From Alphaproteobacteria bacterium (GTDB lineage: Bacteria; Pseudomonadota; Alphaproteobacteria; Rhodospirillales; Magnetospirillaceae): a DNA stretch of 64,000 bases. The translations under genes and the position numbers were made by a program. Below the pieces are notes generated by a model. It was not told the origin of the DNA and ran no database searches. It was given only the letters and a program-made list of their open reading frames with translations. Numbering within the stretch: position 1 is the first letter of the stretch; each line of letters begins with the position of its first letter. The stretch covers positions 1 to 64,000 of the forward strand of contig JAJPHO010000071.1 of NCBI GenBank assembly GCA_021325215.1. Reading direction: 5' to 3'. Positions 505 through 23,836 of the stretch are shown in pieces.

Positions 505-3500
505 TTAATTATAGGTTCCGATCTGCAGATTGCGGATCAGCACGCCGCGCGTCGCAGCACCCGCGCCCGACGTAAATCCGGCGATGATGCCGTCGAAGGA
601 CGAAAGCCCCCGGTGGGACGAAGTCCAATTGACCGAGCCGGGATCCGGCGTGCAGTAATTCACAGCGTAGATATAGGTGCCGGCGTAGCTCTTGGCCAAG
701 GGCAAGCCGGACAACGACGCCGTGGCGGTCGCGCCGATTCCCCCCCCACCCGTGAACACTACGGTGGGCGCGCTGGTATAATTGGCCCCCACGTTGGTGA
801 CCGTCACCAAGGTCACTGCGCCGCCGGATACCGTCGCGGTCGCCTTGGCCAACGTTCCGCCGCCGCCGATCAGGGAAACGGTGGGTGCCGAGGTATAGCC
901 GGTCCCACCATTGGTCACCGAGACCGAATAGACCCGCGATCCGGCCATCAGCAGGTTCTGGCTCATATCGTTGCAGGCTTGTCCGCCCAGCGCGGCGGAA
1001 TCGCAATCCATATAGGCCGCGACATGCATATAGCTGGCGCCTTGCGTGCCCTGATTGCCGCATGAGCCGCAGGCCGAATCGCAGTAACGCTGAATCTCGA
1101 CACGCACGGAATGATAGGAAACCCCTGAATTGTTCTGTGTGTCGGCGATCGGACCATTGCTGGTGATGATATTGGTGCCGGCGATGGTGTCGTAGCTGCA
1201 TCCGCCTGCGGTCGGCGTGCTCCTCGTGGCCAAGGCGCCCCCTGTGCTCCCGCCGCCGGCAAGAAACCCGCCATCATGCAGCGAAGCATTGCTGCCGGTC
1301 GCCGAATCACAGCTCGAGCTGATGGTGTAGGCGGTGTTGTTCGTCCCGGCCGGACTGCCCGCCCCCGATGTCGAATAATGGTAGGTGTCGTCATGCTGGA
1401 GGCTGTCGACGATCAGCGCCGCGAGATATTCGGGTACGCAGCTATTGCCGTCGCAGCCGGTATTGTCGTCATGCCGGATGTTGCCGGCGAAACTTTGCGT
1501 GCCGGGATAGGCCTGGGGCATGGCGATCCCGGTTCCGGTGGTATAGGCCCCGCTGCCCTGCACGGTGCTCACGGCGGTCAGCGCCGAACTGATCTGGGCC
1601 GGTGTATAGGAGGCCGCCGCGCTGCTGCCGAAGAAGCCCCAATCGTCGTGATAGCCATAATCCGAATAGAACGGGTCGGTCGGATGGTGATAGGTGCGGA
1701 ATTCGATGCCGAATTTCGGCAGCACGATCGGCGGCGGCAGGGAGACCGCGGTCGAACTGGATTGATATCCCGTCCCGCCGGCGGCGACCTGTATCGCGTT
1801 GACCGATACGTTGGCGCCGGCGGTGCCGGCAAAGCACGAACTGGTGCAGGCCGATGTGGGCGGATCGATGCCGATGCTGGGGATCGCCGTAAAGCTGCCG
1901 CTGTAACCGGTTTTGCCGTTCGTGGTGTCGGCGACCACGCCGAAGACACCCATATTGGTGACATGAGCCGTGGCGGTGATGCAGGACACCGTGCAGGCCG
2001 TCGGTGCCGATATGGTGACCGAGGGAACAAGAGTATAGCCCGATCCATAATAACTTAGCGTCAGGGAAGTAATGGTGCCGGTAGTGCCGATGGTCGCCGT
2101 AGCCAGTGCCGCGGTGACCGTGCCCGTTTCATTCGGGGCCGGGACGATGGTGACGGTCACCGGTGTGGTCGAGCTGAATCCGATCGCGGTGATGGTTCCG
2201 TTGGTGACGATGGCACTTACCGTGGCGGGAACATGCGTCGAATCCTTTACCGGAGCCCAGTTTCCCTTGTCATAGCTGCTGCTGTAACCCGATCCGCCAT
2301 TGGTGATGGAAATCCCGGTAATGCGACCCTGATTATCTGTATTTGCCTGTGCCGTGGCGGCGACGCAATTGCTGGTGCAATTGAGCGGTGCAGGCAAAGT
2401 GAAGATTACAGTCGTGTTGGTGGGATAATTCGCCCCATTGTCGGCCAATTGGACGTCCGACACCGCCCCGCCATTGATGTTGCCGATGGTTGCATAGGCG
2501 ATGCCGCCGCCGGCGATGGTGACGACGACGTTGCTGACATAATTATGGCCGCTGTTGGTGACGGTGACCCCGGTGACGGAACCGCCACTGACGGTGGCGG
2601 TCGCCGTCGCGCCCTGCCCGCCGCTATTGCCCGTGGCGACGCCCGCGATATAGACGCTCGGCGTGCCCGTATATCCGGTGCCGCCGAACTGCGACGACCC
2701 GCCGCTGCCCGAGGACGTCGAATATCCCGCGCCGGGATTGTCGATGGCGAGGCCGAACACCTGCATCGAATTGACCCGGGCAAAGCCGCAGGAACTGGCG
2801 CCCACCGTCTGAGTGCAGGTGTCTTGACTGATATAGAGCCCGGTAACGCTGCCGCCCGCGCTGTTGATGGTGGATGAAGCGCCGATGGCGTCGGCGCAGC
2901 CGGTGCTGCAACCGCTCTCGACGGCGCCCTCCAGCCATACCGACGGCGCCCGCACATAGCCGCTGCCGGGAGACGTCACGGTCAGCTTGGTCACCTGCCC
3001 GTTGGTCACGGTGGCCGTGCCGGCCGCATCGCCGCACCCGACGGTGCAGCCGGTCGCGGCGGCGGATTCGATGATGACGAAGGGCGTAGAGGGATAGCCC
3101 GCCCCTCCGGCCGGCGCGACAATGGCATTGGGAACCACGCTGGTGCCTTCGGCCGCGATGTAGCCATAGCCCGAATAGGTGGCGTTGATGCTATTGATCT
3201 TGGCCGACGAAACGAGAGCCGTGGCCTGGGTGCCGCTGCCGCTGCCGGTGTTGGTGATCTCGACCGGCGGAATATAAAGATATCCGGCCCCCGAAGCGGT
3301 GACGGAGACGCTGGTGACGGGCTTTGTCCCGGTGGTCGAGGCGGTGGCCCCGGCCGCCGCCGAGCCGGTATTGCCGCCGTCGGTGATCTGCTCGAACCCG
3401 AGATAGCTGCCTTCGTTCGTATTGCCGCCGCTGTTCTTGCCGCCGGGCGTCCCGCCGCACGGCGTACTGCCGACCAGATTGGTGGCCCCCGGCAGGAACG

Positions 3501-4530
3501 ACATGGTGAAGCCGTCGCCGGCCGACGTGCCCGCCGTCGAAAACTCGAAATAGGCCCGCAGCGTATGGACGGTGAGAATCAACGGCTCGTTCAGCCAGCT
3601 GCAGGCCTGGGAATCATTGAACATGACCGGCGCCGAGGTGATGCTGGTGGTCGTGGTATTACTGCCCAGCACCAGCACCGACGTGGTGCCGGAAGTGTTC
3701 ATCACCGCGTTCGAACTGACCCCGTTCGGATTGCTGATCTGCGACGATGTGGTCATCGTCATGTTCGACTGGAACACGCCGGCCGCATTCGCAGCACCAA
3801 ACCCGAATCCGCCGCCACCGGGCCCTCCCGAGCCAGGCGGCGTCACCTTGCAATAGAGTTTCTGCGAGCCGTTCAAATCGGCGCAGACCTGCGTGCTGGT
3901 CTCGAACACCAGCCATTGCGCGCCGTTCGCGCCGCTGGACGCGTTTGGCGTGACGAAGGCCGTCGTCAAGCCCCCGCCGGAGATCGCCTGGATATTGGTC
4001 GCTTCGGCCTGGATCTGGGCGCTCGGAAGATTGGACGCCTTGCCCGCCTGCACCGCGTTGCCGGACCGATTGTAGCTGCCGCCGTCAGGGCCGAAGCTCA
4101 TCAGGACATAAGCATAGGGGGTTGCGGCGGCACCGCCGATGGAAACCTGGACCGCGTCGGGCGACGTACTGGGAAAGCTCTTGTAGGGCGTTCCGGTGGT
4201 CAGCCCGGAAGAAACGGCGTAACCGATCATGTTGCCCCAGGCGTCCTGCGCGGCGCTCTGTGGAAGACCCAGCGTCTTCCAGGGCACTACACCCGCCGCC
4301 GGATTGGCCAGGGCGCAGTCCTCGACACCGAGATTGGCGGCGCTGGTGTCGGCGCCGTTGGCCGGACAGGGCAGACGGTAATTGCTGGTGCGCGAGGCAA
4401 ATGTCCAAAGCGACTTCTGGATGACGGACGACATCTGCGCGCTGACGCTTTTCTGATGGGCATAGTCGGTGCGCGGCCCGAGATAGCGCAGGCCGAGGAC
4501 CAGGCTGAACCCGAAAAGGAGAAAAGCCAT
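505..4530 (-). CDS. Giant pilin-like surface adhesin with split lectin-like domain and GSGY repeats
   Basis: A 1341-residue protein counted from the first ATG. The N-terminus is a hydrophobic pilin helix (residues 1-16), then a module with LPCPANG (53-59), a GVEDC motif and PWKTLGL (83-89) that is shared with the divergent minor pilin at 4759. A concanavalin/L-type-lectin-like sandwich follows: LRAYFEF and [11 protein letters not shown] (324-348), then KFGIEFRTY (939-947), VRVEIQRYC and [10 protein letters not shown] (1142-1176), and a C-terminal FDGIIAGFT...LIRNLQIG. Two blocks of GSGY-type repeats, about 405-935 and 1200-1275, are inserted into it. The true start is probably a non-ATG codon further upstream, near 4602, because an in-frame [12 protein letters not shown] pseudopilin leader precedes the ATG. 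I infer a MshQ- or PilY1-like tip adhesin exported by the adjacent pilus machine. The lectin assignment rests on pattern only. Confidence 0.75.
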
Positions 4531-4643
4531 GACGGCGATCAGCAGCGCCGAGCCGGCCTGACGTTCCGTCTGCCGGCGAGGAATATTCGACGTCGAACGC
4601 AGAGTTCCCCCCTACCGTCGCGGACCCACACCAGGACGGCGCA

Positions 4644-4758: not shown

Positions 4759-5541
4759 ATGTCGCAGCGAGGCTTCACGCTCATCGAAATGGCGATGGTC
4801 ATGATCGTGGTCGGCCTGATGGTCGGCGGCGGCCTGTTCGCGCTTGCGCCGGTGATCGACAAGGCCCGCGTCAACCAGACCAATGCGACCCTCGACCAGG
4901 TGGAAAGCGCCCTGGAATTGTTCGTCATCCGCAACCAGCGGCTGCCTTGCCCGGCCGATGGGGCGCAGATCAATACCTCGGGAACTTACGGGGTCGAGAA
5001 TTGCGGCCTCGCCACGGAGGCCAATGCGGTCATTCCGTGGAAGACCATGGGCCTGGATGAAAGCTATTCCATCGATGGCTGGGGAACCCGTTTGTCCTAT
5101 TGGCCGTCCGGCACCCTCGGGATCGGATCGTCATTGACCGCGGCGCCCGACATGGAGCGCACCGGCGGCACGAATTATCCTTCGGGAACTTACCTCACCG
5201 TGACCGACGTGGTGAGCAAGCAAACGGTCACCTCGACGACATCGGGCGCGGATCGTGCGGCCTATGTGCTGGTCAGCCACGGCAAGAGCCAATTGTATGG
5301 ATGGAGCAAGACCGGCAAGCAGGTACTTCCCGACAACAGCCTCAATCTGACGAACAAGCAGTGCAACAATAATCCGGCCGGCTGCGCCCTGGGCACCGGC
5401 ACCTCCTTCGCCTCGGGAGGGCCCATCGGCCCCTACCCGCCGCAAACCAACACGCCCACCTATTTCGACGACCTCGTCCGCTGGCGCTCGCCCGCCATGA
5501 TGATCCAGCTGTGCGGGACCGGCTCATGCGGCAACCCCTGA
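4759..5541 (+). CDS. Type IV minor pilin or pseudopilin
   Basis: A 260-residue prepilin. The leader MSQRG is followed by FTLIEM, the classical prepilin peptidase site with Glu at mature position 5, and a hydrophobic helix to about residue 30. The start at 4759 is chosen because it yields this canonical leader, follows GGGG, and lies after the promoter at 4699-4727; an in-frame ATG 60 bases upstream would add an unlikely extension. After the helix come LPCPADG (62-68), GVENC and PWKTMGL, the same module as in the divergent adhesin. The C-terminus has paired cysteines (QLCGTGSC). It heads a plus-strand set with a lytic transglycosylase, PilT and PilU. It probably sits in the pilus tip complex with the adhesin. 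Confidence 0.85.
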   Translation: MSQRGFTLIEMAMVMIVVGLMVGGGLFALAPVIDKARVNQTNATLDQVESALELFVIRNQRLPCPADGAQINTSGTYGVENCGLATEANAVIPWKTMGLDESYSIDGWGTRLSYWPSGTLGIGSSLTAAPDMERTGGTNYPSGTYLTVTDVVSKQTVTSTTSGADRAAYVLVSHGKSQLYGWSKTGKQVLPDNSLNLTNKQCNNNPAGCALGTGTSFASGGPIGPYPPQTNTPTYFDDLVRWRSPAMMIQLCGTGSCGNP

Positions 5542-6734
5542 CCTCCCGCCTGGGCGGCGTGGCATTGTGCGCCTTCGCCGCCTTTGTCTCCGCAGCGCAG
5601 GGCCAGGTGCTGCAAGGCCAGGAAGTCAAAGTCAGCTGCCTGCCCGAACTGGTCGCCGCCGAAGCCCGATACCATGTGCCGGCCGGCCTGCTGCTGTCTA
5701 TGGCGCTGGTCGAGTCGGGGCGGCGCGACCCCGTCACCGGACTGGTCGCGCCCTGGCCGTGGACCATCCAGGTCGAAGGGCATGGGCATTTCTACGAATC
5801 CCCCGCGGATGCCTCCCGCGAGGCGATGACCTTCCTTCAGGCCGGCAACGGCTATGTCGATGTCGGCTGCCTGCAGGTCGATCTGTTCCATCATCCGGAC
5901 GCTTTCCACACGCTGGAACAGGCGTTCGACCCCGTGACCAACATCGATTACGCAGCGAAATATCTGGCCGGCCTGGCTCATAGTCGCGGCTCCTGGCTGG
6001 AAGCGGTGGCGGCCTATAATGCCGGCGACCCGTCTGACGGCATCGCCTATCTTTCCAAGGTCCTCTATCTGTGGAAAGGGGTTCACCTGACCGCCCAGGC
6101 CGCGCAGTCGGCGCCGGACAACCCGCAGCGCGTCGGCTTCACCGTCAAGGAAACCCCGCAGCCGCTCGACCTCGCCGCGGCATTCTACGCGCAGCATGAT
6201 TATCCGGCGGCTCTGGCGCTCTATAACGAGCAGCTTCACCATCATCCCGACGATGTCAGCGCCCTGATCGGCGCCGCCGCCGTGCTGGCGGCGCAAGGAC
6301 ATGCTGACGGCGCGCGGAACCGGCTGGAACTGGCCCTGACCATGGCGCCCGACAACCGCATGGCGCTGGAGGAATTGCTTCGGCAGATCGACGCGCTGCC
6401 GCCCGAACGGCAATTGACCGCGCTGCTGTCGGCCTATCACGCGACACCCGGCATAGCCGAATTGCCGGCTCGCATCGCCCTTCTGCAGGCCGGCACCGGC
6501 CAGATCGACGATGCCGTCGCCAACATGGCCGAAGCAGTCCGCCTGCAGCCGGGCGACCCGATCCACCAGCTGAATTATGCGCTGCTACTCGATCGCGACG
6601 GCTCGAAAGACGCCGCACGCAGCGCCTATAGAACTTTTCTGGAGATCTACCGGCCGGGCCGCTCGCCCACTTTGACGGTGCCTGTCGACCAGATCCGCCA
6701 GCGTCTGGCCTATCTCGACAAAACCTCCCCTTAG
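5526..6734 (+). CDS. Lytic transglycosylase with C-terminal TPR-like repeats
   Basis: A 402-residue secreted protein starting at the ATG at 5526, overlapping the end of the pilin gene by 16 bases; a GTG at 5511 is an alternative. Residues 1-27 form a signal peptide ending in SAAQG. An SLT-type domain follows: VPAGLLLSMALVESG carries the probable catalytic glutamate (E63), and GCLQVDL and AAYNAGDP match the conserved GxxQ and AYNAG motifs. From about residue 205 the protein becomes alpha-helical with repeated ALALYNEQL-like units, resembling tetratricopeptide repeats. The family cleaves peptidoglycan glycan strands; here it likely opens the wall for pilus assembly. The SLT/TPR combination is less usual than a lone SLT domain. 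Confidence 0.85.
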   Translation: MRQPLTSRLGGVALCAFAAFVSAAQGQVLQGQEVKVSCLPELVAAEARYHVPAGLLLSMALVESGRRDPVTGLVAPWPWTIQVEGHGHFYESPADASREAMTFLQAGNGYVDVGCLQVDLFHHPDAFHTLEQAFDPVTNIDYAAKYLAGLAHSRGSWLEAVAAYNAGDPSDGIAYLSKVLYLWKGVHLTAQAAQSAPDNPQRVGFTVKETPQPLDLAAAFYAQHDYPAALALYNEQLHHHPDDVSALIGAAAVLAAQGHADGARNRLELALTMAPDNRMALEELLRQIDALPPERQLTALLSAYHATPGIAELPARIALLQAGTGQIDDAVANMAEAVRLQPGDPIHQLNYALLLDRDGSKDAARSAYRTFLEIYRPGRSPTLTVPVDQIRQRLAYLDKTSP

Positions 6735-6749
6735 CCCCTAGAGGCCGCG

Positions 6750-7967
6750 ATGGAAATCACCGAACTTCTCGCCTTCACCATGCAGAGCAAAGGGTCGGAC
6801 CTGCACCTTTCGAGCGGGTCGCCGCCTTTGATCCGTATCTCCGGTGAATTGCGCCCGCTGAAGGTCGATCCGCTGAACGGCGACGAGGTCAAGGCGATGC
6901 TCTACGCCATCATGACCGAGGAGCAGCGGGCGGAATATGAGCAGGAGCGCGACCTCGATTTCGCCGTCTCCTATGGCGAATCGGCCCGCTTCCGCGTCAA
7001 CGCCTTCAACGTCAATCGCGGCCCGGCCGCGGTGTTCCGCACCATTCCGACGGTGATCCCGTCGCTGGAAGACCTCAATGCCCCGGCGGTGTTCCGTCAG
7101 TTCTCGCAGATCGAGAAGGGCCTGGTGCTGGTGACCGGCCCGACCGGCTCGGGCAAATCGACCACGCTGGCGGCGATGCTCAACGAGATCAACCGCACCG
7201 AGAACAAGCACATCCTGACCATCGAGGACCCGGTCGAGTTCGTGCATAAATCCGACCGCTCGCTGATCAATCACCGCGAGGTCGGCAAACACACCAAATC
7301 CTTCGCCCGCGCCCTGAAGAGCGCCTTGCGCGAAGATCCGGACGTGATCCTGGTCGGCGAAATGCGCGACCATGAGACCATCGGCCTGGCTCTGACCGCC
7401 GCCGAGACCGGCCATCTGGTGATGGGCACGCTGCACACCAGCTCGGCCGCCAAGACGATCGATCGCATCGTCGACGTGTTCCCGGCCGGCGACAAGGAAA
7501 TGGTCCGCTCGATGCTGGCCGGCTCGCTGCAGGCGGTGATCAGCCAGATTCTCCTGAAGAAGATCGGCGGCGGCCGCTGTGCCGCGCACGACATCCTGGT
7601 CGGCACCCCCGCGGTGCGCAATCTGATCCGCGAGAACAAGATCCCGCAGATCACCTCGATGATGCAGATGGGCTCACGCTACGGGATGATCACCATGGAG
7701 GATTCGGTCAAGGCGCTGGTCAATCAGGGCCTGGTCGATCCGTCCGAGATGGAGCGCTTCGCGGTGCCCGGCGACAAGCAGGGCCAGGCGCCCGGACCGG
7801 GACCTGCCGCCGCGCCGCCCCAGCACCAGCCGCAACAGCAGGCCGCGCAGCCTGCCCCGCCGGCCGCCGCGCGAGCACCCGAACCGCCGCCGCCGGAACC
7901 GCCCGCCGAGGCACCGAAATCGAACTCGCTGTTCAAGCGAAGCGGCGTATCGAGCCTGATGAAATAA
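6750..7967 (+). CDS. pilT: PilT-type twitching motility / pilus retraction ATPase
   Basis: A 405-residue hexameric ATPase of the PilT family that depolymerises type IV pili. Visible motifs are DLHLSSGSPP near the N-terminus, Walker A GPTGSGKST (about 129-137), the Asp box TIEDPVEFVH, Walker B VILVGEMRD (about 198-206), the His box GTLHTSSAAKTIDRIVD, and AVRNLIRE, a variant of the PilT-specific AIRNLIRE motif. The core ends near residue 345 and is followed by about 45 residues rich in Pro, Ala and Gln, then a short basic end (FKRSGVSSLMK). That tail is not part of standard PilT. The gene lies 15 bases after the transglycosylase gene and 24 bases before pilU, in one operon. Confidence 0.93.
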   Translation: MEITELLAFTMQSKGSDLHLSSGSPPLIRISGELRPLKVDPLNGDEVKAMLYAIMTEEQRAEYEQERDLDFAVSYGESARFRVNAFNVNRGPAAVFRTIPTVIPSLEDLNAPAVFRQFSQIEKGLVLVTGPTGSGKSTTLAAMLNEINRTENKHILTIEDPVEFVHKSDRSLINHREVGKHTKSFARALKSALREDPDVILVGEMRDHETIGLALTAAETGHLVMGTLHTSSAAKTIDRIVDVFPAGDKEMVRSMLAGSLQAVISQILLKKIGGGRCAAHDILVGTPAVRNLIRENKIPQITSMMQMGSRYGMITMEDSVKALVNQGLVDPSEMERFAVPGDKQGQAPGPGPAAAPPQHQPQQQAAQPAPPAAARAPEPPPPEPPAEAPKSNSLFKRSGVSSLMK

Positions 7968-7991
7968 TCTGACCGCTTTGGGGGAAGCAGA

Positions 7992-9107
7992 ATGAGCCAA
8001 ATTCGCCAATGGCTGGCCGACATGGTCGCCCGCAAGGGTGCCGACATGTATCTCACCTACGGCTCGACGCCGATGATGCGGGGCGATGGCGGGCTGGAGC
8101 CGCTGTCCGACGCCAGGCTGGATGACGCCGCCCTTGCCGCCGCCATCGCAGACTTCACCACGCCGGAGCAGCGCGAAGAATTCGAAAAGGCGCGCGAATT
8201 CAACATGGCGCTCGATCTCGGCGCGACCGGGCGTTTCCGCGTCAATCTGCTGAAGCAGCGCCAGCACACGGCCGCCGTCATCCGCCAGATCACCACCACT
8301 ATCCCGACCCTGGAACAGCTCAGGCTGCCCAAGCTGCTAGGCGAGCTGTGCTGCGAGAAACGCGGCCTGGTCATCGTGGTGGGCGGCACCGGTTCCGGCA
8401 AATCGACCTCGCTGGCGGCGATGATCGATTACCGCAACAAGAAGGAACCGGGTCACATCATCACGATCGAGGACCCGATCGAACATGTGCACGAACACAA
8501 GCAGTGCCTGATCACCCAGCGCGACGTCGGGGTGGATACCCATTCCTTCGACGCCGCCCTGAAGAACGCGCTGCGCCAGAAGCCCGATGCCATCCTGGTC
8601 GGTGAAATCCGCGACGCGCAGGTGATGGAGCACGCCATCAACATCGCCGAGACCGGCCATCTGGCGCTGGCGACCCTGCACGCCAACAATGCCAACCAGG
8701 CGCTGGAGCGCATCCTCAATTTCTTCGAGCGCGAGGCGCACCACCAGATCCTGCTCAACCTGTCGCTCAATCTGCGCGGTATCCTGTCGCAGCGCCTGGT
8801 GCGCACCAAGTCGGGCGGCCGCACCGCCGCCCTGGAAATCCTGCTGAATGAAGGCCTGATCAAGGATCTTGTCCGCAAGGGCGAGGTCAAGGAGATCAAG
8901 GCGATCATGGCCGAGAATGCCGAGCGCGGCATGCAGACCTTCGACCAGGCCCTGTTCACGCTGTGGAAGAATGGCGAAATCGACGAAGAGATCGCCATCG
9001 CCGAAGCCGACAGCCCCGGCGACCTCAAGATGCTGATGCAGCGCGAGAAGCTGGGCGGCGGCGAAGGGCTGAAGGGGATCGATACGTCGAAATTGTCGTT
9101 GGGATGA
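7992..9107 (+). CDS. pilU: PilU-like accessory pilus retraction ATPase
   Basis: A 371-residue PilT/PilU-family ATPase, second in a tandem pair. It has ADMYLTYGSTPMMR at the N-terminus, Walker A GGTGSGKST (about 131-139), TIEDPIEHVHEHK, Walker B AILVGEIRD, and the His box ATLHANNANQALERI. The PilT AIRNLIRE motif is replaced by LIKDLVRKGE, and the C-terminus ends in an acidic then EKLGGGEGLKGID stretch, as in PilU proteins. Known PilU proteins support PilT-driven retraction and cannot replace it. The gene ends 11 bases before the convergent ABC ATPase gene of the long minus-strand pilus operon. Confidence 0.9.
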   Translation: MSQIRQWLADMVARKGADMYLTYGSTPMMRGDGGLEPLSDARLDDAALAAAIADFTTPEQREEFEKAREFNMALDLGATGRFRVNLLKQRQHTAAVIRQITTTIPTLEQLRLPKLLGELCCEKRGLVIVVGGTGSGKSTSLAAMIDYRNKKEPGHIITIEDPIEHVHEHKQCLITQRDVGVDTHSFDAALKNALRQKPDAILVGEIRDAQVMEHAINIAETGHLALATLHANNANQALERILNFFEREAHHQILLNLSLNLRGILSQRLVRTKSGGRTAALEILLNEGLIKDLVRKGEVKEIKAIMAENAERGMQTFDQALFTLWKNGEIDEEIAIAEADSPGDLKMLMQREKLGGGEGLKGIDTSKLSLG

Positions 9108-9853: not shown

Positions 9854-10302
9854 GGAACAATTCCCTCCACGATGTCGTTGGAGCGCGCAAGCCAGGTTTG
9901 ATAGGGATGCAGCACGAAGCGGGCGGGCTTGCTGCCGCCGACCGTGATCTCGGCCGCGTCTTCGCTCACCGAAACGACGGAAAAATCCGGCGCCTGGCGG
10001 CCCGGGACGATCCGGTAGCCATTCGCCCAGACCGTCCACGCCCCGTCGCCATAATAGGCCAATCCGGAAACGTAGATGTTCGGAACATCCGGCGGCGGCG
10101 CGGCACTTTCCTCAGCGACGACCCCGGTGTTTTTCATACGGTTATAGTCCGCGATCGCCTTGGCGAGGGCCGCGGCATCCGCCTCGGGGAACAGCAGCGA
10201 CTTGGCCGCCGGCGGCGTGGCGGGCGGCGGGTCCGCCCACAGCCGGAGCGGCAGCGAGCCCGCCAGGAACAGCGCCAGCAGCTTTGCGCCTGTGCGCGAC
10301 AT
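9850..10302 (-). CDS. MshK/PilP-like periplasmic pilus assembly protein
   Basis: A 150-residue protein starting at the ATG at 10302, which overlaps the stop of the preceding gene by one base. An N-terminal hydrophobic segment (KLLALFLAGSLPLRLWA) looks like a signal peptide or anchor. The C-terminal half reads YYGDGAWTVWANGYRIVPG followed by FSVVSVSEDAAEITVGG. This matches the general pattern of MshK, PilP and GspC HR domains: an NG turn, then a valine-rich strand, then a charged loop. Such proteins link the inner-membrane platform to the secretin. Position after the MshJ-like gene fits the order mshI-mshJ-mshK of known MSHA loci. Assignment rests on weak similarity plus position. Confidence 0.6.
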   Translation of the reverse strand: MSRTGAKLLALFLAGSLPLRLWADPPPATPPAAKSLLFPEADAAALAKAIADYNRMKNTGVVAEESAAPPPDVPNIYVSGLAYYGDGAWTVWANGYRIVPGRQAPDFSVVSVSEDAAEITVGGSKPARFVLHPYQTWLARSNDIVEGIVP

Positions 10303-10946
10303 TATTGAGCCTCCTGGTCGAGCGGCCGCACGCCGATCCATTGCATATCGATCTTGGCCTTCAGCAACGAGATGGGTGTGCCGCGCCGGACCGCCCCCAG
10401 AACCACGGGATTGATCTCCTGGACACGCTCCAGGCTGGCTTCCGCCACGCGATAATGTCCATTCGCCTGGGCCAGCAGAGCTTCCCAGAACGACATGGCC
10501 TCGGTATCCAGCAGCCCGCCGCTTTCAAATACGACGCGGTCGATTTCCACCCGGTATTTCGGGCTGTGCTCGCGGTCCCCCGGCTCATCCGCCAGCCGGA
10601 ATCGGAGATCGTTCAAATAATGCTGGGTAGCCTGGCCTTGGGCGAATTGGACGAAGCCCCGCCGGTCGAGCGTCGCCGCCAGACCCGACGAAATCGCCTC
10701 GTCATAGTGATGGCGCAGCTGCGGATAGGAATCCAATTGTTTGCGCAGATCGGCGTTCTGCCGCTTGGCCTCGGTCAGCTGCGCGCGCGCCTGGTCCACC
10801 GCCGCGACCCGTTCCGCCATCACGTCGTCGAGCACCAGATACCCCAGCACCAGCACGAAGAGATCGAAGGCGATGACTCCGCCCAGGACCTTGAGCCGCA
10901 GGGGAAAGCCACGCAGTTTCTTGAGCCAGACATTGAGCGAGTCCAT
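10302..10946 (-). CDS. MshJ/PilO-like pilus alignment protein
   Basis: A 214-residue bitopic membrane protein. A short basic cytoplasmic N-terminus (WLKKLRGFPLRLK) precedes one helix (about 20-42, VIAFDLFVLVLGYLVL), then a coiled-coil segment (VDQARAQLTEAKRQNADLRKQL in part) and a mixed periplasmic domain. Length and layout match PilO, GspM and MshJ, which pair with PilN-type proteins to form the alignment subcomplex between platform and secretin. The stop codon overlaps the start of the MshK-like gene, and the upstream MshI-like gene ends only three bases before it, so the three genes are translationally linked. Confidence 0.7.
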   Translation of the reverse strand: MDSLNVWLKKLRGFPLRLKVLGGVIAFDLFVLVLGYLVLDDVMAERVAAVDQARAQLTEAKRQNADLRKQLDSYPQLRHHYDEAISSGLAATLDRRGFVQFAQGQATQHYLNDLRFRLADEPGDREHSPKYRVEIDRVVFESGGLLDTEAMSFWEALLAQANGHYRVAEASLERVQEINPVVLGAVRRGTPISLLKAKIDMQWIGVRPLDQEAQ

Positions 10947-10949
10947 GAT

Positions 10950-12680
10950 TCAGCCTCTCTTCTGAATCAGATATTCGGCGGTCTGCATCGCCCCCGCCTG
11001 GCGGGCCCCCTCATTGGGGATATTCTCGATCACTTCCTTGCGCAGACTGTTCGTCGGCACTTTGACGGCGCTTACGGCATGGTCGGGAAACAGTTTTCCC
11101 AGACGGTCCTGCAGCTCCTTGGCCTGTTCGAGCGCACTGCGGCCGACCGACGGATTCGGGTCGAACTGAACCACCACCGAAAGCTCATACGCCAGATCGT
11201 CCGCCTTGACCGGCGCCGCACGGCCTCTCACCGGCTTGGGGGGTGCTGCAACGGCTGCCGCCGGCGCGGCGGCATCGCCGGTCGCCAGGGAGGGAATGCG
11301 GAAGACGGCCTTCTGAACCAATTCGCCCGGAGTCAGAGCGCCGGCGACCCGCTGCAACAACTCCTCGATATCCACGGCGCTCTTGGCGATCTTGTCGGCG
11401 GTATTGTCGACCAGCAGCACATCCTCGAGCGACACATCGAGCGAGGCAAGCTTGCTCTTGGTCACGTCGATAGCCTGCCGCTCGGTCGCCAGCTGCTGCA
11501 CCAGCAGATCGGCGGTGGTGGTGGTGTCGAACGCATCCATGCTGAGCGAAACGAGGTCTGAAATGGCAAACAGGGACAACGCCACCGCGGTGGCGAGGCC
11601 GATCTTGAAAACGCGGTCGAACAACAGCCTGTCGCGCAGGGGTTCGGTCGACAGCACCATCATCGGCTTACGCTTGGCCGCCAGCCACCGCGCATGCAGG
11701 ACGTCGGACAGGCCGCTATCCTCCGGCGCCACCTCGCCCAGGCCGAGCAGCAGACCGGCCTGATAGGGGGTATAGGCGGTCAGGGACGAAATGGGCAGAT
11801 CGCGCTCCTCGACGGCGCGGCACACTTCCGGCTCGGCCAGGACGATCAGATCGAGCCGGTCCTGGTCGCTATATCCCAAACGCTTGACGTAACTGATCGA
11901 GGAGCGCAATTCGCGTTCGATCAGCTGCGCGATGGCCTGCGCCGAGAGTTCCGTCGGGGGCCGCTGGGCCAGTCGGGTGACCAGCATCCGGTCCTCGGTC
12001 TCGAAGATCTGACGAAAGCCGCTGGTCGCCTGCTGGGTGACCATCACGCGCCAGGCCTGTCCTCCATCCCCGAGGACGGGTGGCCCCAGTTCGATCGGAA
12101 TGCCGGCCGATTCGAGCGGCATCAGACAGAAGCCGATAACCGGGTTGGTCAGGGATTCGAGAAACTCGATCCACAGGCGGATCGCCTCTGTCTCGGGCAA
12201 CGAGGCGAACAGCACCTTACCCCCGGACTGAGGCAGTGAATCCTTGAGCCGGTCCTGCGGAAAAGCGATGTCGAGCCGGCGCTTGGTGACATTGGCGCGG
12301 TCGAACCGGCCGACCTTGGGCAACTGCTCCTCGCGGTACATCTGTTCGAGCACATCCGCCGCCACCGTCAGGCGGGCGCGCGGATCGCGGGCCAGATAAC
12401 CGCGCAGCACCCCAAGCCCATCTTCCGTCTCGGGTCCGACGAATACCGCATCGACCACCTCTCCGGCCTGCAACTGGACCAGGGTCGCGCCCTCGTCGCC
12501 GATCGTCAGAACGAAGCTCGTGACCGATTCGATCAAGCCCAGCTTTCTGAGGCGGCCGGTGAGCGGACCGAACACCCGTTCGACCGGCCCCCTGAGACTC
12601 GCGCGCAGCCGGGCCGCGGCCTTAACCACCGCGGGATGAAGGGGTATTCGAGCGAAGAGAGGCTTACGACGTTTGGCCAT
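10950..12680 (-). CDS. MshI-like protein: PilM-type cytoplasmic part fused to PilN-type membrane part
   Basis: A 576-residue protein from the ATG at 12680, four bases after the preceding stop; a TTG at 12695 would overlap that gene. Residues 1-350 are soluble and begin with SFVLTIGDEGATLVQL, resembling the actin-like fold of PilM/GspL. A single membrane helix follows (about 365-388, IGLATAVALSLFAISDLVSL), then a coiled coil (LLVQQLATERQAIDVTKSKL) and a periplasmic domain with an Ala/Pro linker, as in PilN. Standard pili use separate PilM and PilN; GspL and MshI combine them. The classical nucleotide-binding signature of PilM is not obvious. Position between MshG-like and MshJ-like genes supports the call. 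Confidence 0.7.
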   Translation of the reverse strand: MAKRRKPLFARIPLHPAVVKAAARLRASLRGPVERVFGPLTGRLRKLGLIESVTSFVLTIGDEGATLVQLQAGEVVDAVFVGPETEDGLGVLRGYLARDPRARLTVAADVLEQMYREEQLPKVGRFDRANVTKRRLDIAFPQDRLKDSLPQSGGKVLFASLPETEAIRLWIEFLESLTNPVIGFCLMPLESAGIPIELGPPVLGDGGQAWRVMVTQQATSGFRQIFETEDRMLVTRLAQRPPTELSAQAIAQLIERELRSSISYVKRLGYSDQDRLDLIVLAEPEVCRAVEERDLPISSLTAYTPYQAGLLLGLGEVAPEDSGLSDVLHARWLAAKRKPMMVLSTEPLRDRLLFDRVFKIGLATAVALSLFAISDLVSLSMDAFDTTTTADLLVQQLATERQAIDVTKSKLASLDVSLEDVLLVDNTADKIAKSAVDIEELLQRVAGALTPGELVQKAVFRIPSLATGDAAAPAAAVAAPPKPVRGRAAPVKADDLAYELSVVVQFDPNPSVGRSALEQAKELQDRLGKLFPDHAVSAVKVPTNSLRKEVIENIPNEGARQAGAMQTAEYLIQKRG

Positions 12681-12684
12681 GCCG

Positions 12685-13896
12685 CTATCCCGCAATCTTG
12701 CTGAGGCTGTTATAGATCGGCCCGATGACCGCGAGGATGATCCAAACCATCATTCCGCCCCCGAATACGGTAAGGATCGGCTGAATCATATCCACCAGCG
12801 CATCCACCGATTCATCGACGTCGCGGTCGTAGAAATCGGTGACGTTGTTCAGCGTCTCGCCAAGATTACCGCTTTCCTCGCCGATTTTGACCATACGAAT
12901 GACCAGGCTGGGAAATTCGCCGGTATTTCTCAGTCCCGACGACAGCGGATTGCCGTCGGCAACGCCGGACCGCACGGTCGCCAGGGACTGCGACAGGCAG
13001 CGGTTGCCGACGACGCGGCTGGCGGTGTCCAGGCAGGTGAGGATCGGAACGCCGCTCTGAAACATGGTGGCGAAGAAATGGGCGAAGCGCGACAACGCGA
13101 TCTTGCGGACCAGTTCGCCGAAGATCGGCAACCTCAACGTATAGAAATCCATCCGATAGGCGACCTTCTCCGAAGAGCGGGCGATCACCTTCAACCCCAG
13201 GAACAGCAGCACCGGGGCGACCACCAGGACATACCAATAGCCCTGAACGAATTCGGAGGTCGCGATCAGCGCGACCGTCATGATCGGCAGTTCCTGGCCT
13301 TCCGCCTTGAGAAAGGTGACCAGCTGCGGGACGACGAACAGCATCATCATCACGAACATGCCCAGCAGCACCAGCAGCATGAAAATCGGATAGCGCGTCG
13401 CCTTCTTGATCTTCTTGTCGACCGCGTCCGTCCATTTCAGATGCTTGACCAGCTGATGGAAGGATTCGGTCAGATTGCCGCTTTCCTCGCCCGCCACCAT
13501 CAGCGACTGGAAGACCGTTCCGAATACGCGGGGATGACGGCCGAAGGCATCTGACAGCGACTGGCCCGACCCCACATCTTCGAAGATTTCGGCCAGCAGG
13601 TCGCGCAAACGGCGATGATCGGTGGAGTCTCGGACATCTGCCAGCCCTTCCATCAGGCTGACGCCGGCCGCCGATAATTGCTGCAGGTGCAGACACATCT
13701 GCACCAGCTCGCGGACCGCGATCCTGCGGCCGAACAAGGCGGACAGACCGCCTCTACCGCTATAAACCTTGGCCGAGATGAGCTCGAGATTGATCTGCTT
13801 CAGCCGCTGAAACAGATCCATATCGTTGTTGGCCGTCATCTGGCCGGCAACACGCCGGCCGGTCTGATTGAGAGCTTTGTAATTATAAAGCGGCAC
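12685..13896 (-). CDS. MshG/PilC/GspF-type inner membrane platform protein
   Basis: A 403-residue polytopic protein. The start MPLYNYKALNQTGRRVAGQM is the typical N-terminus of the GspF/PilC/MshG family. Two GspF repeats are visible; each contains a conserved SGNL-type motif (GEESGNLTESFHQLVKHLK and GEESGNLGETLNNVTDFYD in the two copies). Membrane helices lie around residues 170-192, 205-230 and 375-395. The protein anchors the extension ATPase to the membrane and helps extract pilin subunits. It lies 24 bases after mshE, the usual order. Confidence 0.92.
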   Translation of the reverse strand: MPLYNYKALNQTGRRVAGQMTANNDMDLFQRLKQINLELISAKVYSGRGGLSALFGRRIAVRELVQMCLHLQQLSAAGVSLMEGLADVRDSTDHRRLRDLLAEIFEDVGSGQSLSDAFGRHPRVFGTVFQSLMVAGEESGNLTESFHQLVKHLKWTDAVDKKIKKATRYPIFMLLVLLGMFVMMMLFVVPQLVTFLKAEGQELPIMTVALIATSEFVQGYWYVLVVAPVLLFLGLKVIARSSEKVAYRMDFYTLRLPIFGELVRKIALSRFAHFFATMFQSGVPILTCLDTASRVVGNRCLSQSLATVRSGVADGNPLSSGLRNTGEFPSLVIRMVKIGEESGNLGETLNNVTDFYDRDVDESVDALVDMIQPILTVFGGGMMVWIILAVIGPIYNSLSKIAG

Positions 13897-13920
13897 CGAC
13901 AGGAACTCCGAGCGACTGCG

Positions 13921-15945
13921 CTATAGCCGGTCCGTGATGTCGACGGTCCGGCTCAGGCTGTCCAAAGTCAGATGCCCGGCGAGAATTTTGGCGAAGCCAT
14001 CCTCAATGATCGGAACGAAGCCGAACTTGCGCGCCTCATCTTTCAAATGATTCAAGGATTTGCCGTCGAGGATGATCTCGTCGAGCTGACGGTTCATCGG
14101 CAGCAATTCATGGACCGCCATGCGCCCGCGATAGCCGGTGAAGCGACATTCGCCACACCCGACCGGCTGCCCGACTTCGGGCGGATGATTGGCGTCCAAT
14201 CCCATGATGCGGCACTCCTCTTCATTGGCCGGTCGCTTGGTGGCGCAGGCATGGCAAAGGGTACGCGCCAATCGCTGGGCGATGATCCCGGTGATATTGC
14301 CCGCCAGCAGCTTGGGACTCAGCCCGAGATCGTGCAGGCGGGGAATGACGCCGACCGCGTCGTTGGTGTGCAGGGTGGTGAAGACCTGGTGACCGGTCAT
14401 CGAGGCGCGCAGCGCCATCGTGGCGGTCGGCGTGTCGCGCACCTCGCCGATGAAGATGACGTCGGGGTCCTGGCGCATGATGGCGCGGACACCGTCCGAG
14501 AAATTCATCGCCGTACCGTCGCGCACCTGGCCCTGGCGCATCAGCTGAACCTCGTATTCGACCGGGTCCTCGAGGGTCATGATGTTGCGTTCGAGCGAGT
14601 TGATGTGGCTGAGCACCGCATAGAGGGTCGTCGTCTTGCCCGAGCCGGTCGGACCGGTGACGATGATGATGCCCTCGGGACGCCGGATCAGCTTTTTCAG
14701 CAGGGCGAAATTGCTCTCCGACAGGCCCAGCCTGTCGATGGTGATGACCGAGCGCGATTTGTCGAGCACGCGGATGACGATGTTTTCGCCATGGACCGTC
14801 GGCATGCAGGCGACGCGGAAATCGATCTTGTGGCTGCCGATGGCGAAGCCGAAGCGGCCGTCCTGGGGGTTCAGCTTATCGGCGATGTTCATGTCCGACA
14901 TGATCTTGATGCGGTGCGAAATCGCCGGCCAATGATCCTTGTGGAAGGTACGGATCTGCTGCATCACGCCGTCGATGCGATAGCGCAGGCGCACAAAGGC
15001 GCCTTCCGGTTCGAAATGCAGATCCGAGGCGCCGGTCTTGACGCCATCCAGCATGATCGCATTGACCAGGCGCACCAGCGGATGGACATAGCCGTCGCCG
15101 GACATCGCCGAGGCGGAGACGTCGTGCTTGCCGGTCTCCAGCTCCTTCAAAATGCCGTCGATGGAGAATTCGTAGCCGTAGAACTGATCGATGGCCTGGA
15201 GGATTTCCGCTTCCGAGCTGATCAGCGGAATGATTTCCGAGCCGGGCGGCGCATATTTGCGGGTCTGATCGAGGGCCAGCACGTCATAGATGTCGGCCAT
15301 CGCCAGGCGCAGCGACTTGCCTTCCATCGATACCGGCAGCACGCGATAGCGCAGCGCCACTTCCTTGGGGATGCGCTTCAGCAGCTCCGGTTCGACCACC
15401 GTGCCGCCGAGATCGAATTTCTCGTAGCCGGAACTGGAGGCCAGCACCGCCGACAGGGCCGATTCGGTGATGAAGCCGAGATCGACCAGCAAGGTGCCCA
15501 GCAGCTTGTTGGTGCGTTTGCGCTCATAGAGGGCGACCTGCAGCTGATCCTTGGAGATCAGGCCCATCTCGACCAGACGGTCGCCGATACGGGCGCCGGC
15601 GGGAGAAGCCGCGTTCGCATCGCCCGGATGCGCGCCCTGAGGCCCGCCGCCGGAGGGTTCCTTGCGGGGGGGAGGTGGTGGTGGCGGAGCGTCGCCTCCG
15701 CCACCGGAGCCGCCGCCATTGCCGCCTGAAGAGCCGCCGCCCCCGGAGCCGCCGCCCGCCAACGGCGGAGGAGGACTATCGGCCACAGGTTCGACCATAC
15801 CCTGCTCGAGCGGCGGCGCCGCGGTTGCGGGCGCGGCCGGGATGGGTTCTTCAAGGGTCAGATTGGACGTGGGAACCGGCGCCGGGGCGGGCGTCTCGGC
15901 CTTCGCCTTGTCCTTGCCGACCTGATCGGAAAACTCGAATGCCAT
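13921..15945 (-). CDS. mshE: MshE-like pilus extension ATPase with c-di-GMP-binding N-domain
   Basis: A 674-residue GspE/PilB/MshE ATPase. Residues 1-115 are a low-complexity Pro/Gly/Ser stretch, including a polyglycine run and seven consecutive prolines. A MshEN-type domain follows: block one 119-142 (RIGDRLVEMGLISKD...), a five-residue spacer 143-147, block two 148-171 (LLGTLLVDLGFITES...). This 24-5-24 layout is the known c-di-GMP-binding pattern. Then come Walker A GPTGSGKTT (about residue 432), Walker B DVIFIGEVRD (about 495), His box FTTLHTNDAVGVIPRL, and a four-cysteine zinc site (CHAC near 565, CGEC near 595). It powers pilus extension. The pilin terminator upstream implies that it is expressed by read-through or an internal promoter. 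Confidence 0.93.
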   Translation of the reverse strand: MAFEFSDQVGKDKAKAETPAPAPVPTSNLTLEEPIPAAPATAAPPLEQGMVEPVADSPPPPLAGGGSGGGGSSGGNGGGSGGGGDAPPPPPPPRKEPSGGGPQGAHPGDANAASPAGARIGDRLVEMGLISKDQLQVALYERKRTNKLLGTLLVDLGFITESALSAVLASSSGYEKFDLGGTVVEPELLKRIPKEVALRYRVLPVSMEGKSLRLAMADIYDVLALDQTRKYAPPGSEIIPLISSEAEILQAIDQFYGYEFSIDGILKELETGKHDVSASAMSGDGYVHPLVRLVNAIMLDGVKTGASDLHFEPEGAFVRLRYRIDGVMQQIRTFHKDHWPAISHRIKIMSDMNIADKLNPQDGRFGFAIGSHKIDFRVACMPTVHGENIVIRVLDKSRSVITIDRLGLSESNFALLKKLIRRPEGIIIVTGPTGSGKTTTLYAVLSHINSLERNIMTLEDPVEYEVQLMRQGQVRDGTAMNFSDGVRAIMRQDPDVIFIGEVRDTPTATMALRASMTGHQVFTTLHTNDAVGVIPRLHDLGLSPKLLAGNITGIIAQRLARTLCHACATKRPANEEECRIMGLDANHPPEVGQPVGCGECRFTGYRGRMAVHELLPMNRQLDEIILDGKSLNHLKDEARKFGFVPIIEDGFAKILAGHLTLDSLSRTVDITDRL

Positions 15946-16008
15946 GGCTTCCCCAACACCGCGAACGGTGTTCCCCCACTACTCGGCAGCCCAGTCAAAA
16001 CCACACCG

Positions 16009-16038
16009 AAAAAAAAGAGGCGGGGGTCTCCCCGCCTC
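16009..16038 (-). terminator. Intrinsic terminator after the major pilin gene
   Basis: A perfect 9-bp stem (GAGGCGGGG 16017-16025 with CCCCGCCTC 16030-16038), loop of four, followed on the minus strand by eight T residues (16016-16009). It lies between the pilin stop and the mshE start. It would cap a short pilin transcript and lower expression of the genes downstream. Confidence 0.85.
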
Positions 16039-16069
16039 GTTCTTCAACACTAGAGCGTGGGCTGACGCC

Positions 16070-16855
16070 TTACTGAATCACGAACATCAGATTGCAGTAA
16101 TTGTTGGTCGGCGACCCAGTACCCACGGAATAAGCATTGGCGACGACGCAACTGGTCGTGCTCGATTGCGACTGAGCCAGGATCGAGCCGGTCTGCGGCA
16201 GGCCGTCGTCATATTTGCGGTCGAGATTCGAGGCATCCGCCTCGCGCAGGGCGAACTGGGTAGCCGGCGGAGCGCCGCTCGCTACAGCCTGCAGGCGCGC
16301 CATCACCGCGATGGTGGCTTGGCCACCCGGCGGCGTGGAGGAGAACGTCGCGATGAACAGATAGGTGCTGTTCATCTTGCCGGGATAGCTCAGGGCGGTA
16401 TTGCCGGTGACGCCGTTGGTCAGCAGCGTGTTCGGCGGCAATTGGATACCCGACAGCAGGTTGGCCGCGTCCAGATGCGCCCAGGCGGTGACCGACTCGG
16501 TTCCGAGCTGGCTGGCGGTATCGATCAGGCTCAACTGGCCGGTCGCGGCGATGGCGCCGTTTCCGTCACCATCGGTGCCTTGCACATCGAGCGTATTCGC
16601 CGCGTTCGGATAATCGCCGGGCAGATAGCTGAACTGGTCCTGGAAGGTATAGACAGCCGACTTGACCGCATCGATCTGAGCGACCTGCGTCTTGAGGCGG
16701 GCATTGTTGACCACCTCCTGTCCCTTGAGGATGCCGCCGACGATCAGACCAATGATGGCCAAGACGATCGACATTTCAATCAGCGTGAAACCCTGCTGAG
16801 CGCTAGGTTTGCTTAAGTCACCCGCGCGGATGACCTTACGAATGGCCTGAATCAT
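16070..16855 (-). CDS. Major type IV pilin, MshA-like
   Basis: A 261-residue prepilin. The leader is 22 residues long and basic; cleavage is expected after QQG, before FTLIEMSIVLAIIGL, with Glu at mature position 5. The hydrophobic helix runs to about residue 45. The globular part has a GDYPNAAN and DGDGNGAI region, the latter rich in Asp/Gly and possibly calcium binding as in GspG-like pseudopilins. A late cysteine pair (SCVVANAY... and NNYCN) probably closes the C-terminal disulfide loop. It has its own promoter and intrinsic terminator, consistent with high expression of the main fibre subunit. The long leader is closer to type IVb-like prepilins. Confidence 0.88.
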   Translation of the reverse strand: MIQAIRKVIRAGDLSKPSAQQGFTLIEMSIVLAIIGLIVGGILKGQEVVNNARLKTQVAQIDAVKSAVYTFQDQFSYLPGDYPNAANTLDVQGTDGDGNGAIAATGQLSLIDTASQLGTESVTAWAHLDAANLLSGIQLPPNTLLTNGVTGNTALSYPGKMNSTYLFIATFSSTPPGGQATIAVMARLQAVASGAPPATQFALREADASNLDRKYDDGLPQTGSILAQSQSSTTSCVVANAYSVGTGSPTNNYCNLMFVIQ

Positions 16856-16905
16856 GAAGTGACCCCCTGAAGGAAGCGCATCCCCGCACCTCCAATCGAA
16901 CCGGC

Positions 16906-16934
16906 ATTATACTGACTCCGGGAACTGCAACCAA
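16906..16934 (-). promoter_or_regulatory. Sigma70-type promoter of the major pilin gene
   Basis: On the minus strand a perfect TATAAT (16911-16906) lies 17 bases after TTGGTT (16934-16929). Transcription would begin about 45 bases before the pilin start, and CAGGGGG in the leader serves as ribosome binding site. No sigma54 -24/-12 pair was seen, unlike many type IVa pilin genes. Confidence 0.6.
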
Positions 16935-16964
16935 ATTAAAATCTAATTGCGTTAAAATTTCCCT

Positions 16965-17687
16965 TCACGGCTGCTGATATTTGTCAAATCCCAGCTCGTG
17001 CATGCGCGTTTTGAAATTGCTGGCGACGCGGCGACGCCTTGCGATCATGTCCGGGCTTGCCGCCAGCGCCGCCGCCTTTTCCTTTTCCCCGGCCACGCGG
17101 TAAAGCGGCATTTCCAGCAACGGAATCCAGTCCGGAATATCCGCCGACTGCGGAAGGGTGCTGATGGAATCGGCGGTATTGCGGGCCAGGTCGGGGTCCT
17201 TGACCGTGCGCTGGATCTTGACGGCGGCCCAAACCAGCCAGGGCCATCTGCGGGCCGGGTCCGCGACACCGGCTTCGACGAAATATTGGGCCACCAGCTT
17301 TATCTTCGGAGGCCCCGCGACAGGATCGAGAATCGCGCCGAAATAGTTCGACCCCAGGGCATAGATGGACTGGGAGTTCAGGTCCAGGCCATCGATCAGC
17401 CTCATCCAATCGATGATCCGGCCATAATCATAATCCTTGAGCGGCCTCACGCGGCCGCCGCCATCCCCTACGCTCTGCAGCCAGCTGATTTCCGTGCGGA
17501 ACAGGAATTGATCGTCACCCAGCGCGAGGGCTCTCATCGCCAGCGGGCTGAGCGGATAGGGCATCTCCTCGATAGCGGGACGCAAAGGCCGGAGCGCCAG
17601 GTTCGAACCGATCTGGACCAGCACCAGCAGCAGGAGGGCCCCCCAGAGCAGGACCGTCCCCATGCGTTTCGACCGCCCCGCTTTCAT
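16965..17687 (-). CDS. Single-helix membrane protein of the pilus operon, unknown function
   Basis: A 240-residue protein starting at the ATG at 17687, five bases after the ABC permease stop. A basic N-terminus (MKAGRSKRM) precedes one hydrophobic helix (about 10-30, TVLLWGALLLLVLVQIG); the rest is predicted periplasmic and helical, with ALGDDQFLFRTEISWLQ and YALGSNYFGAILDP as distinctive stretches and an EKEKAAALAASPDMI helix. I do not recognise the family. Its place between the ABC-2 permease and the major pilin suggests a role with the transporter, perhaps like PilG in the Myxococcus PilG-PilH-PilI set. That link is by position only. Confidence 0.6.
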   Translation of the reverse strand: MKAGRSKRMGTVLLWGALLLLVLVQIGSNLALRPLRPAIEEMPYPLSPLAMRALALGDDQFLFRTEISWLQSVGDGGGRVRPLKDYDYGRIIDWMRLIDGLDLNSQSIYALGSNYFGAILDPVAGPPKIKLVAQYFVEAGVADPARRWPWLVWAAVKIQRTVKDPDLARNTADSISTLPQSADIPDWIPLLEMPLYRVAGEKEKAAALAASPDMIARRRRVASNFKTRMHELGFDKYQQP

Positions 17688-17692
17688 CGCGG

Positions 17693-18469
17693 TCAGTACC
17701 GCTTGACGTGCAGATCGCGAATGGTCGCGAGCAGCAGCACGGGAACGATGATGACGGTCTGCAGCCCCAATACGCCCAATCCCCAGCCGCCACCCGGCCC
17801 ATAGACCAGCCAGCGCCCCTGGCCGAACAGGTCCAGCCTGGGCAGGAGCGACGTCAAGGCTTCGATCGTCCAGCGCGCCGCGTGATCGGTCACCGAATTC
17901 GACAGAGTGCCGGTGTGGCCCTCGGCGATGCCCCGGAAGAACGCGCCCAGCCGGCCGAGCAGATAGAGACCGGTGGCGGCCAGCACCGACGCGGTCGCGC
18001 TGCCCAGCGACAGGGCGCAGAACAAAGCGATGGCAACCACGATCAGACATTCGAGCACGAGGCTGGCCTGCCATTCGGCCAGCCCCAGGGCACCCGGAGC
18101 AAACCCGGCCAGAAGCAGCGGCCCGGCAACCAGGGACAGCAGCGCCGCGATGCCGGCATAGCCGGTGAAATAGGCCAGGACGAACGTCGCGCGCGAAATC
18201 GGCCGGGTAAGAATGGCCTCGATCTCGCGGGTTTCCTCCATGCGACGGACATGAAAGCTGATGAAGGTGATCAAGCCCATCACCATCACGCCGCGGAACC
18301 CCTCGCCCGCCATGGCCAAGCCCATAGCCTGCCCTTCGGCCAGCACCGACGACGCCATCAGCGACGCCCCGCCGAGGATGGCGAATTGAGCGACCAGAAT
18401 GGCGGCGACCATGCGGTCGCGGATGGCCGTGATGAGGACGTAGCGGAAGGTGGCGACCAGAGCGTTCAT
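17693..18469 (-). CDS. ABC-2 type permease of the pilus locus
   Basis: A 258-residue membrane protein from the ATG at 18469 (MNALVATFRYVLITAIRDR). About six hydrophobic helices are visible, arranged as in ABC-2 permeases: an N-terminal pair, then a cytoplasmic loop with RRMEETREIEAILTRPISR, then AYFTGYAGIAALLSLVAGPLLLAG, and a C-terminal helix before a basic end (DLHVKRY). The loop sequence with LTRPISR is typical of the family. The likely ATPase partner is at 9119. The gene sits between the secretin and the one-helix protein, so the operon couples this transporter to pilus assembly. Substrate unknown. Confidence 0.8.
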   Translation of the reverse strand: MNALVATFRYVLITAIRDRMVAAILVAQFAILGGASLMASSVLAEGQAMGLAMAGEGFRGVMVMGLITFISFHVRRMEETREIEAILTRPISRATFVLAYFTGYAGIAALLSLVAGPLLLAGFAPGALGLAEWQASLVLECLIVVAIALFCALSLGSATASVLAATGLYLLGRLGAFFRGIAEGHTGTLSNSVTDHAARWTIEALTSLLPRLDLFGQGRWLVYGPGGGWGLGVLGLQTVIIVPVLLLATIRDLHVKRY

Positions 18470-18482
18470 GTGTCGGACCGGA

Positions 18483-20477: not shown

Positions 20478-20542
20478 GGCTTCCCTACCCCTTTACAGCC
20501 GCGCAGGATATCTCATTCGCGAAACGGCAACAACCGAACCGT

Positions 20543-22470: not shown

Positions 22471-22473
22471 CCG

Positions 22474-23787: not shown

Positions 23788-23836
23788 GATTCCGCCCCTG
23801 TGCCCCCCCAAAAGGCGCAATGGTCCCTACCGGCGA

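Follow-up and report, generated by a model that had tools for sequence, protein, structure and literature searches.

Sequence comparison identifies the product of the gene at positions 505 to 4530 (minus strand) of the window, the 64,000-nucleotide stretch of alphaproteobacterial DNA analyzed here, as a modular prepilin of the type IV class, encoded in a cluster for an MSHA-type pilus, with incorporation into the pilus predicted. Its C-terminal half reads as a single L-type lectin domain whose loops carry two repeat arrays, and the repeat, here called GxGY, is shared with structural proteins of phages. We propose that the protein is, with good probability, a tip adhesin pilin in which a degenerate lectin scaffold displays phage-type modules.

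The prepilin gene and its pilus cluster

From a listed ATG at 4530 the frame runs without a stop for 1,341 codons (1,341 aa); this ATG falls inside the prepilin hydrophobic stretch and cuts off the leader. Upstream of this ATG the frame stays open to 4611, with no ATG, GTG or TTG in frame between 4530 and 4611. The likeliest start is a CTG at 4602, preceded by AGGGGGGAACT (AGGGGGG upstream), which would take in the prepilin leader and give a gene of 505..4602 (minus strand). An ATT at 4584 is a second start option that would restore the leader. The putative leader (4531..4602, minus strand) could be aligned with leaders of the same kind in homologues (QSGQATLLGVMAV, QRGAALLLTVLVL and QSGSALMIAVLSV). 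It lacks Glu5, as do PilX/GspK-type subunits. From the putative start codon, the in-frame upstream sequence ends in a small residue (G) before the cut and runs into a hydrophobic stretch, which agrees with the rule used for class III leaders (a G or A end, then a hydrophobic stretch; PMC10191384). The ATG form of the protein had no pilin match in Pfam or NCBIfam, and since a mechanical ATG start drops the leader, automatic annotation would miss the pilin identity of this gene.

The N-terminal domain (residues 1-236, 3823..4530, minus strand; RLPCPANGA...) is 39-44% identical to its counterparts in relatives, and this head is common to short pilins of the relatives and to the neighboring gene. 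In the 505-4530 protein, the head is fused to an extra module, the lectin, as in modular pilins. The neighboring pilin gene (4759..5541, plus strand) is transcribed divergently from the 505-4530 gene; its product (MSQRG/FTLIEMAM) carries Glu5 and a related head (RLPCPADGA...PWKTMGL).

This pilin gene is followed on the plus strand (5511..9107) by a gene for a lytic transglycosylase-TPR protein, assigned by family search, and by genes for two PilT/PilU-like ATPases (6750-7967 and 7992-9107), named from their translations. Family matches place MSHA-type pilus machinery on the minus strand at 10302..23820. It comprises a PilC/GspF-like platform protein (12685-13896), an MshE/PilB-like ATPase with an MshE-type N-terminal domain (13921-15945) and an MshL-like secretin (18483-20477) that scored 212 bits with the MshL model, below the curated cut-off of 250. 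An AAA gene (21277-22470) and a TPR gene (22474-23820) were named MshM-like and MshN-like by position and domain type. An MshL-type secretin, an MshE-type ATPase, a platform protein and MshM/MshN-like genes are thus all found within the next 20 kb, as in MSHA-type systems.

A lectin domain split by two repeat arrays

To characterize the C-terminal half, we used a lectin profile built from 13 uninterrupted relatives, with the 505-4530 protein and its closest relative left out. The profile matched the 505-4530 protein with an overall E of 1.2e-32, in colinear pieces. Segment 1 (residues ~250-381, 3388..3783, minus strand) ends in GSYLGFEQ and aligns profile positions 12-122 with residues 262-385 (E 1e-15). 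Segment 2 (residues ~937-1199, 934..1722, minus strand; KFGIEFRTY...), in which the metal motif is degenerate, has two profile matches: a weak one (positions 113-141, residues 919-951, iE 0.39), with the metal strand aligning by eye, and a strong one (positions 210-264, residues 1130-1193, E 8e-13). Segment 3 (residues 1276-1341, ending in GVLIRNLQI, plus the stop codon; 505..705, minus strand) aligns positions 260-317 with residues 1278-1340 (E 3e-8). When both GxGY arrays were cut out, the profile score rose from 102.9 to 127.6 bits. Colinear pieces and a higher score without the arrays indicate that the arrays sit inside one lectin domain, at two of its loops.

The array-free core of the 505-4530 protein had no match in Pfam, and its assignment as an L-type lectin runs via the profile of the uninterrupted relatives, which are themselves directly similar to this class. 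Single members of the uninterrupted set match the legume lectin families PF00139/PF18483, and a profile of 15 uninterrupted relatives retrieved only legume-type lectins from the PDB at E <= 0.01 (41 chains). The best of these PDB matches had an E of 2.2e-5, with an alignment spanning the E-x-D ... DPxxxH region. AlphaFold2 modeling of the whole C-terminal region from a three-row alignment reached a pLDDT of only 34, most likely reflecting the shallow alignment, and the single sandwich therefore rests on the sequence profiles. The original prediction had described lectin-like strands in separated parts of the protein, and the independent profile pieces fall close to them. Its central claim, one L-type fold built from separated segments on a pilin, with repeats in the loops, is supported by the uninterrupted homologues and by the stronger match without the arrays.

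Array 1 (residues ~382-936, 1723..3387, minus strand) lies before the strand LPKFGIEF, and array 2 (residues 1200-1275, 706..933, minus strand) consists of two copies; together they add ~630 residues. The motif G-x-G/N-Y/F occurs 16 times in the protein, compared with a mean of 2.6 and a maximum of 9 in 2,000 shuffles. When a repeat profile made from viral sequences alone was run on array 1, the score was 37 bits, whereas none of 200 shuffles exceeded -4. With this profile, eight copies were detected in array 1 (residues 405-925) at E <= 0.05, and both copies of array 2 were recovered (1200-1239, E ~1e-17; 1239-1275, E ~1e-14). Inspection of array 1 by eye gave ~11-12 units, several of them degenerate, so that the earlier estimate of about 12 repeats is a fair one. 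The G-x-G-Y and P-x-V positions are kept in the array copies. A recent acquisition of the arrays was considered and rejected, as their G+C and third-position G+C resemble those of the rest of the gene. A search of a plasmid collection gave no match.

The GxGY repeat, that of array 1 included, matches families of phage baseplate wedge, virion structural and tail fibre proteins (phrog_708, E 7e-25; phrog_701, phrog_19630, phrog_460 and others). It was found in at least 342 stretches of a viral contig collection, and phages of Escherichia and Serratia have it in their tail proteins as well. An AlphaFold2 model of the two array-2 repeats (residues 1199-1279, with 29 viral units in the alignment) had a pLDDT of 95 and a pTM of 0.82, with three strands per repeat, and superposed on phage proteins in BFVD with a TM of 0.88 and an rmsd of 0.5 A. 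Sequence and fold searches of the PDB with the GxGY repeat gave no match, and a literature search by repeat motif found nothing relevant to it among the papers listed. One solved structure of a GxGY repeat would inform both the 505-4530 pilin and many phage virion proteins.

Relatives with an uninterrupted or differently split lectin

Relatives found by way of the pilin head come mostly from metagenome genomes of Rhodospirillales and of other alpha- and betaproteobacteria. The uninterrupted relatives in whole genomes are 404-645 aa long, most of them with the same architecture. Lectin pilins are uncommon: 20 of the 317 genomes of the order carry one, while the sample of the class (385 genomes) has them only in the source genome and one other, and that of the phylum (398 genomes) in the source genome and two others. 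A pilin-head search of genome contigs returned only three lectin-bearing loci.

The relative L032/L093 (Rhodospirillales JOPF122; 1,360 aa) shares the first insertion site with the 505-4530 protein and likewise has a GxGY array there, with a similar linker; this first-site array is probably common to the two proteins by descent. The second GxGY array of L032/L093 lies in the third lectin loop, before the VRVE strand, and L032/L093 has none at the site where the 505-4530 protein carries array 2. Three further relatives (L078, L079 and L080) hold six copies of an unrelated ~62-residue repeat (FTVxGDRTAxFxxGA...) in the third loop, and the lectin homologue L088 (5291-7643) has a ~90-residue Arg/Asp-rich insert there. 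Three unlike third-loop inserts are thus found in different lineages. With close relatives in which the fold is unsplit or split elsewhere, the loops of the lectin seem to act as docking points where this pilus family takes up acquired modules.

In L078, L079 and L080, short WLESG/WMEAG pieces lie between the copies and look like the loop segment of the lectin itself, as though that edge had been duplicated together with the repeat. Two loci (L033 and L277, on contigs C355 and C418 of the relative G006) represent a second modular pilin there, apparently split over two contigs (common end TPNQGDI). This pilin has GxGY repeats too, in a module not recognized as a lectin of the 505-4530 type. An orthologous modular pilin (L039/L094; 1,205 aa, running off the contig) contains another type of tandem repeat (SISGTGISAGTTISAV...).

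Proposed role and comparison with known systems

The E-x-D and H that align with the metal ligands of legume lectins are invariant in the 15 uninterrupted relatives, and both are kept in L078-L080, which bear the unrelated repeat. In the 505-4530 protein and the array-bearing L032, EFRT stands in place of E-x-D and the H is absent. Owing to this loss, we file the lectin of the 505-4530 protein as a degenerate L-type relative and not as a functional member, and classical metal-dependent sugar binding by it is doubtful. The lectin fold itself would be kept as a scaffold.

In the mechanism that we propose, the N-terminal helix would be assembled into the pilus. The protein would probably cap the pilus or sit at its tip, given that it has no Glu5 and that its bulk would not fit into the shaft, and a location at the tip also fits the general model of a tip complex capped by a subunit without Glu5 (PMC10191384). 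A role in adhesion is suggested by two analogies: Streptococcus sanguinis PilC, a tip pilin that bears a lectin and binds glycans (PMC9934059), and modular pilins in general (PMC8179133). The lectin core would serve as a scaffold holding the arrays out from the tip, with the ~11 units of array 1 opening the loop before the metal-binding strand and the two units of array 2 placed before the last strands. Since the sandwich has lost its canonical metal site, the arrays may make most of the contact with a surface or glycan, or share it with the sandwich.

More tentatively, and with the odds somewhat against it, the loops of the L-type lectin in this pilin family could be landing sites for the gain and loss of unrelated repeat modules, some of them shared with phage tail and virion proteins. 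In members with large GxGY arrays, the ancestral metal-dependent sugar site would then have been abandoned and recognition moved to the arrays, and the pilus would change its target by swapping loop inserts.

The original prediction placed a sugar-binding site at the pilus tip and took the repeats for stalks or loops projecting from the lectin core. The lectin might indeed still be a working sugar binder, with a rebuilt or metal-independent site and with the arrays as spacers only; the lectin fold is clear, the GDG loop-A Asp, which varies across the family, is kept at residue 339, and S. sanguinis PilC is a precedent for a lectin pilin that binds glycans (PMC9934059). However, ligands that are invariant in the 15 uninterrupted relatives are gone both here and in the array-bearing relative, and a spacer should separate pilin from lectin, whereas these arrays are inserted into sandwich loops. 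We therefore regard this as unlikely. Slightly less probable still are neutral arrays, drifting as low-constraint insertions in the loops of a large surface protein and having no binding role. Many array-1 copies are degenerate and the array sites differ between relatives, as such drift would allow, but 550 codons have kept an intact frame, the copies conserve their G-x-G-Y and P-x-V positions, and loops of different lineages have been filled by two unrelated types of repeat. That the lectin-like pieces are separate small domains joined by the arrays as ordinary linkers is highly improbable, since they match, in order, parts of a single profile that runs unbroken through 13 relatives, and the lack of a sandwich in the whole-protein model is uninformative at its low pLDDT. 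Among these readings we favor a tip adhesin that displays arrays on a lectin scaffold, and the uninterrupted relatives allow a direct test of what the arrays do.

Among the closest known systems, S. sanguinis PilC (PMC9934059) likewise has a lectin module, of concanavalin-A-like type, after its type IV pilin head and is modelled at the pilus tip. PilC differs in having Glu5 and an Ig-like module, and its lectin, which was superposed on galectin-7, is uninterrupted, whereas the 505-4530 pilin lacks Glu5 and has a legume-type lectin opened by arrays. Legume/L-type lectins (PF00139, PF18483) match the uninterrupted relatives (PDB E down to 2e-5), including the E-x-D ... DPxxxH metal motif of those relatives, while in the 505-4530 protein the metal ligands are lost and the fold has taken up the inserted repeats. 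In ComZ of Thermus thermophilus (PMC6561018), also proposed to be a tip pilin, a large beta domain likewise interrupts another fold between its strands; there a beta-solenoid is inserted in the pilin domain, whereas here repeats are inserted in the second module, the lectin. MshQ of Vibrio cholerae (PMC7096442) is a putative adhesin of an MSHA-type system and is comparable by its putative role; the 505-4530 protein differs in being a prepilin. As MSHA systems can thus have another putative adhesin, another protein could be the adhesin here as well. With the GxGY repeats of phage virion and tail proteins (phrog_708, phrog_701, phrog_19630 and others), the arrays have both sequence and predicted fold in common, but there the repeat is part of phage structural proteins, while here it is nested in the lectin of a bacterial pilin.

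Our limited search of the literature found no description of repeat arrays nested in a pilin lectin. Lectin-type modular pilins are known; the filling of lectin loops by phage-type repeats is a new variation. It extends the diversification of pilus adhesins beyond the addition of a domain at the end, in that the binding domain itself has been opened and filled with arrays, repeatedly, in different loops and with unrelated repeats.
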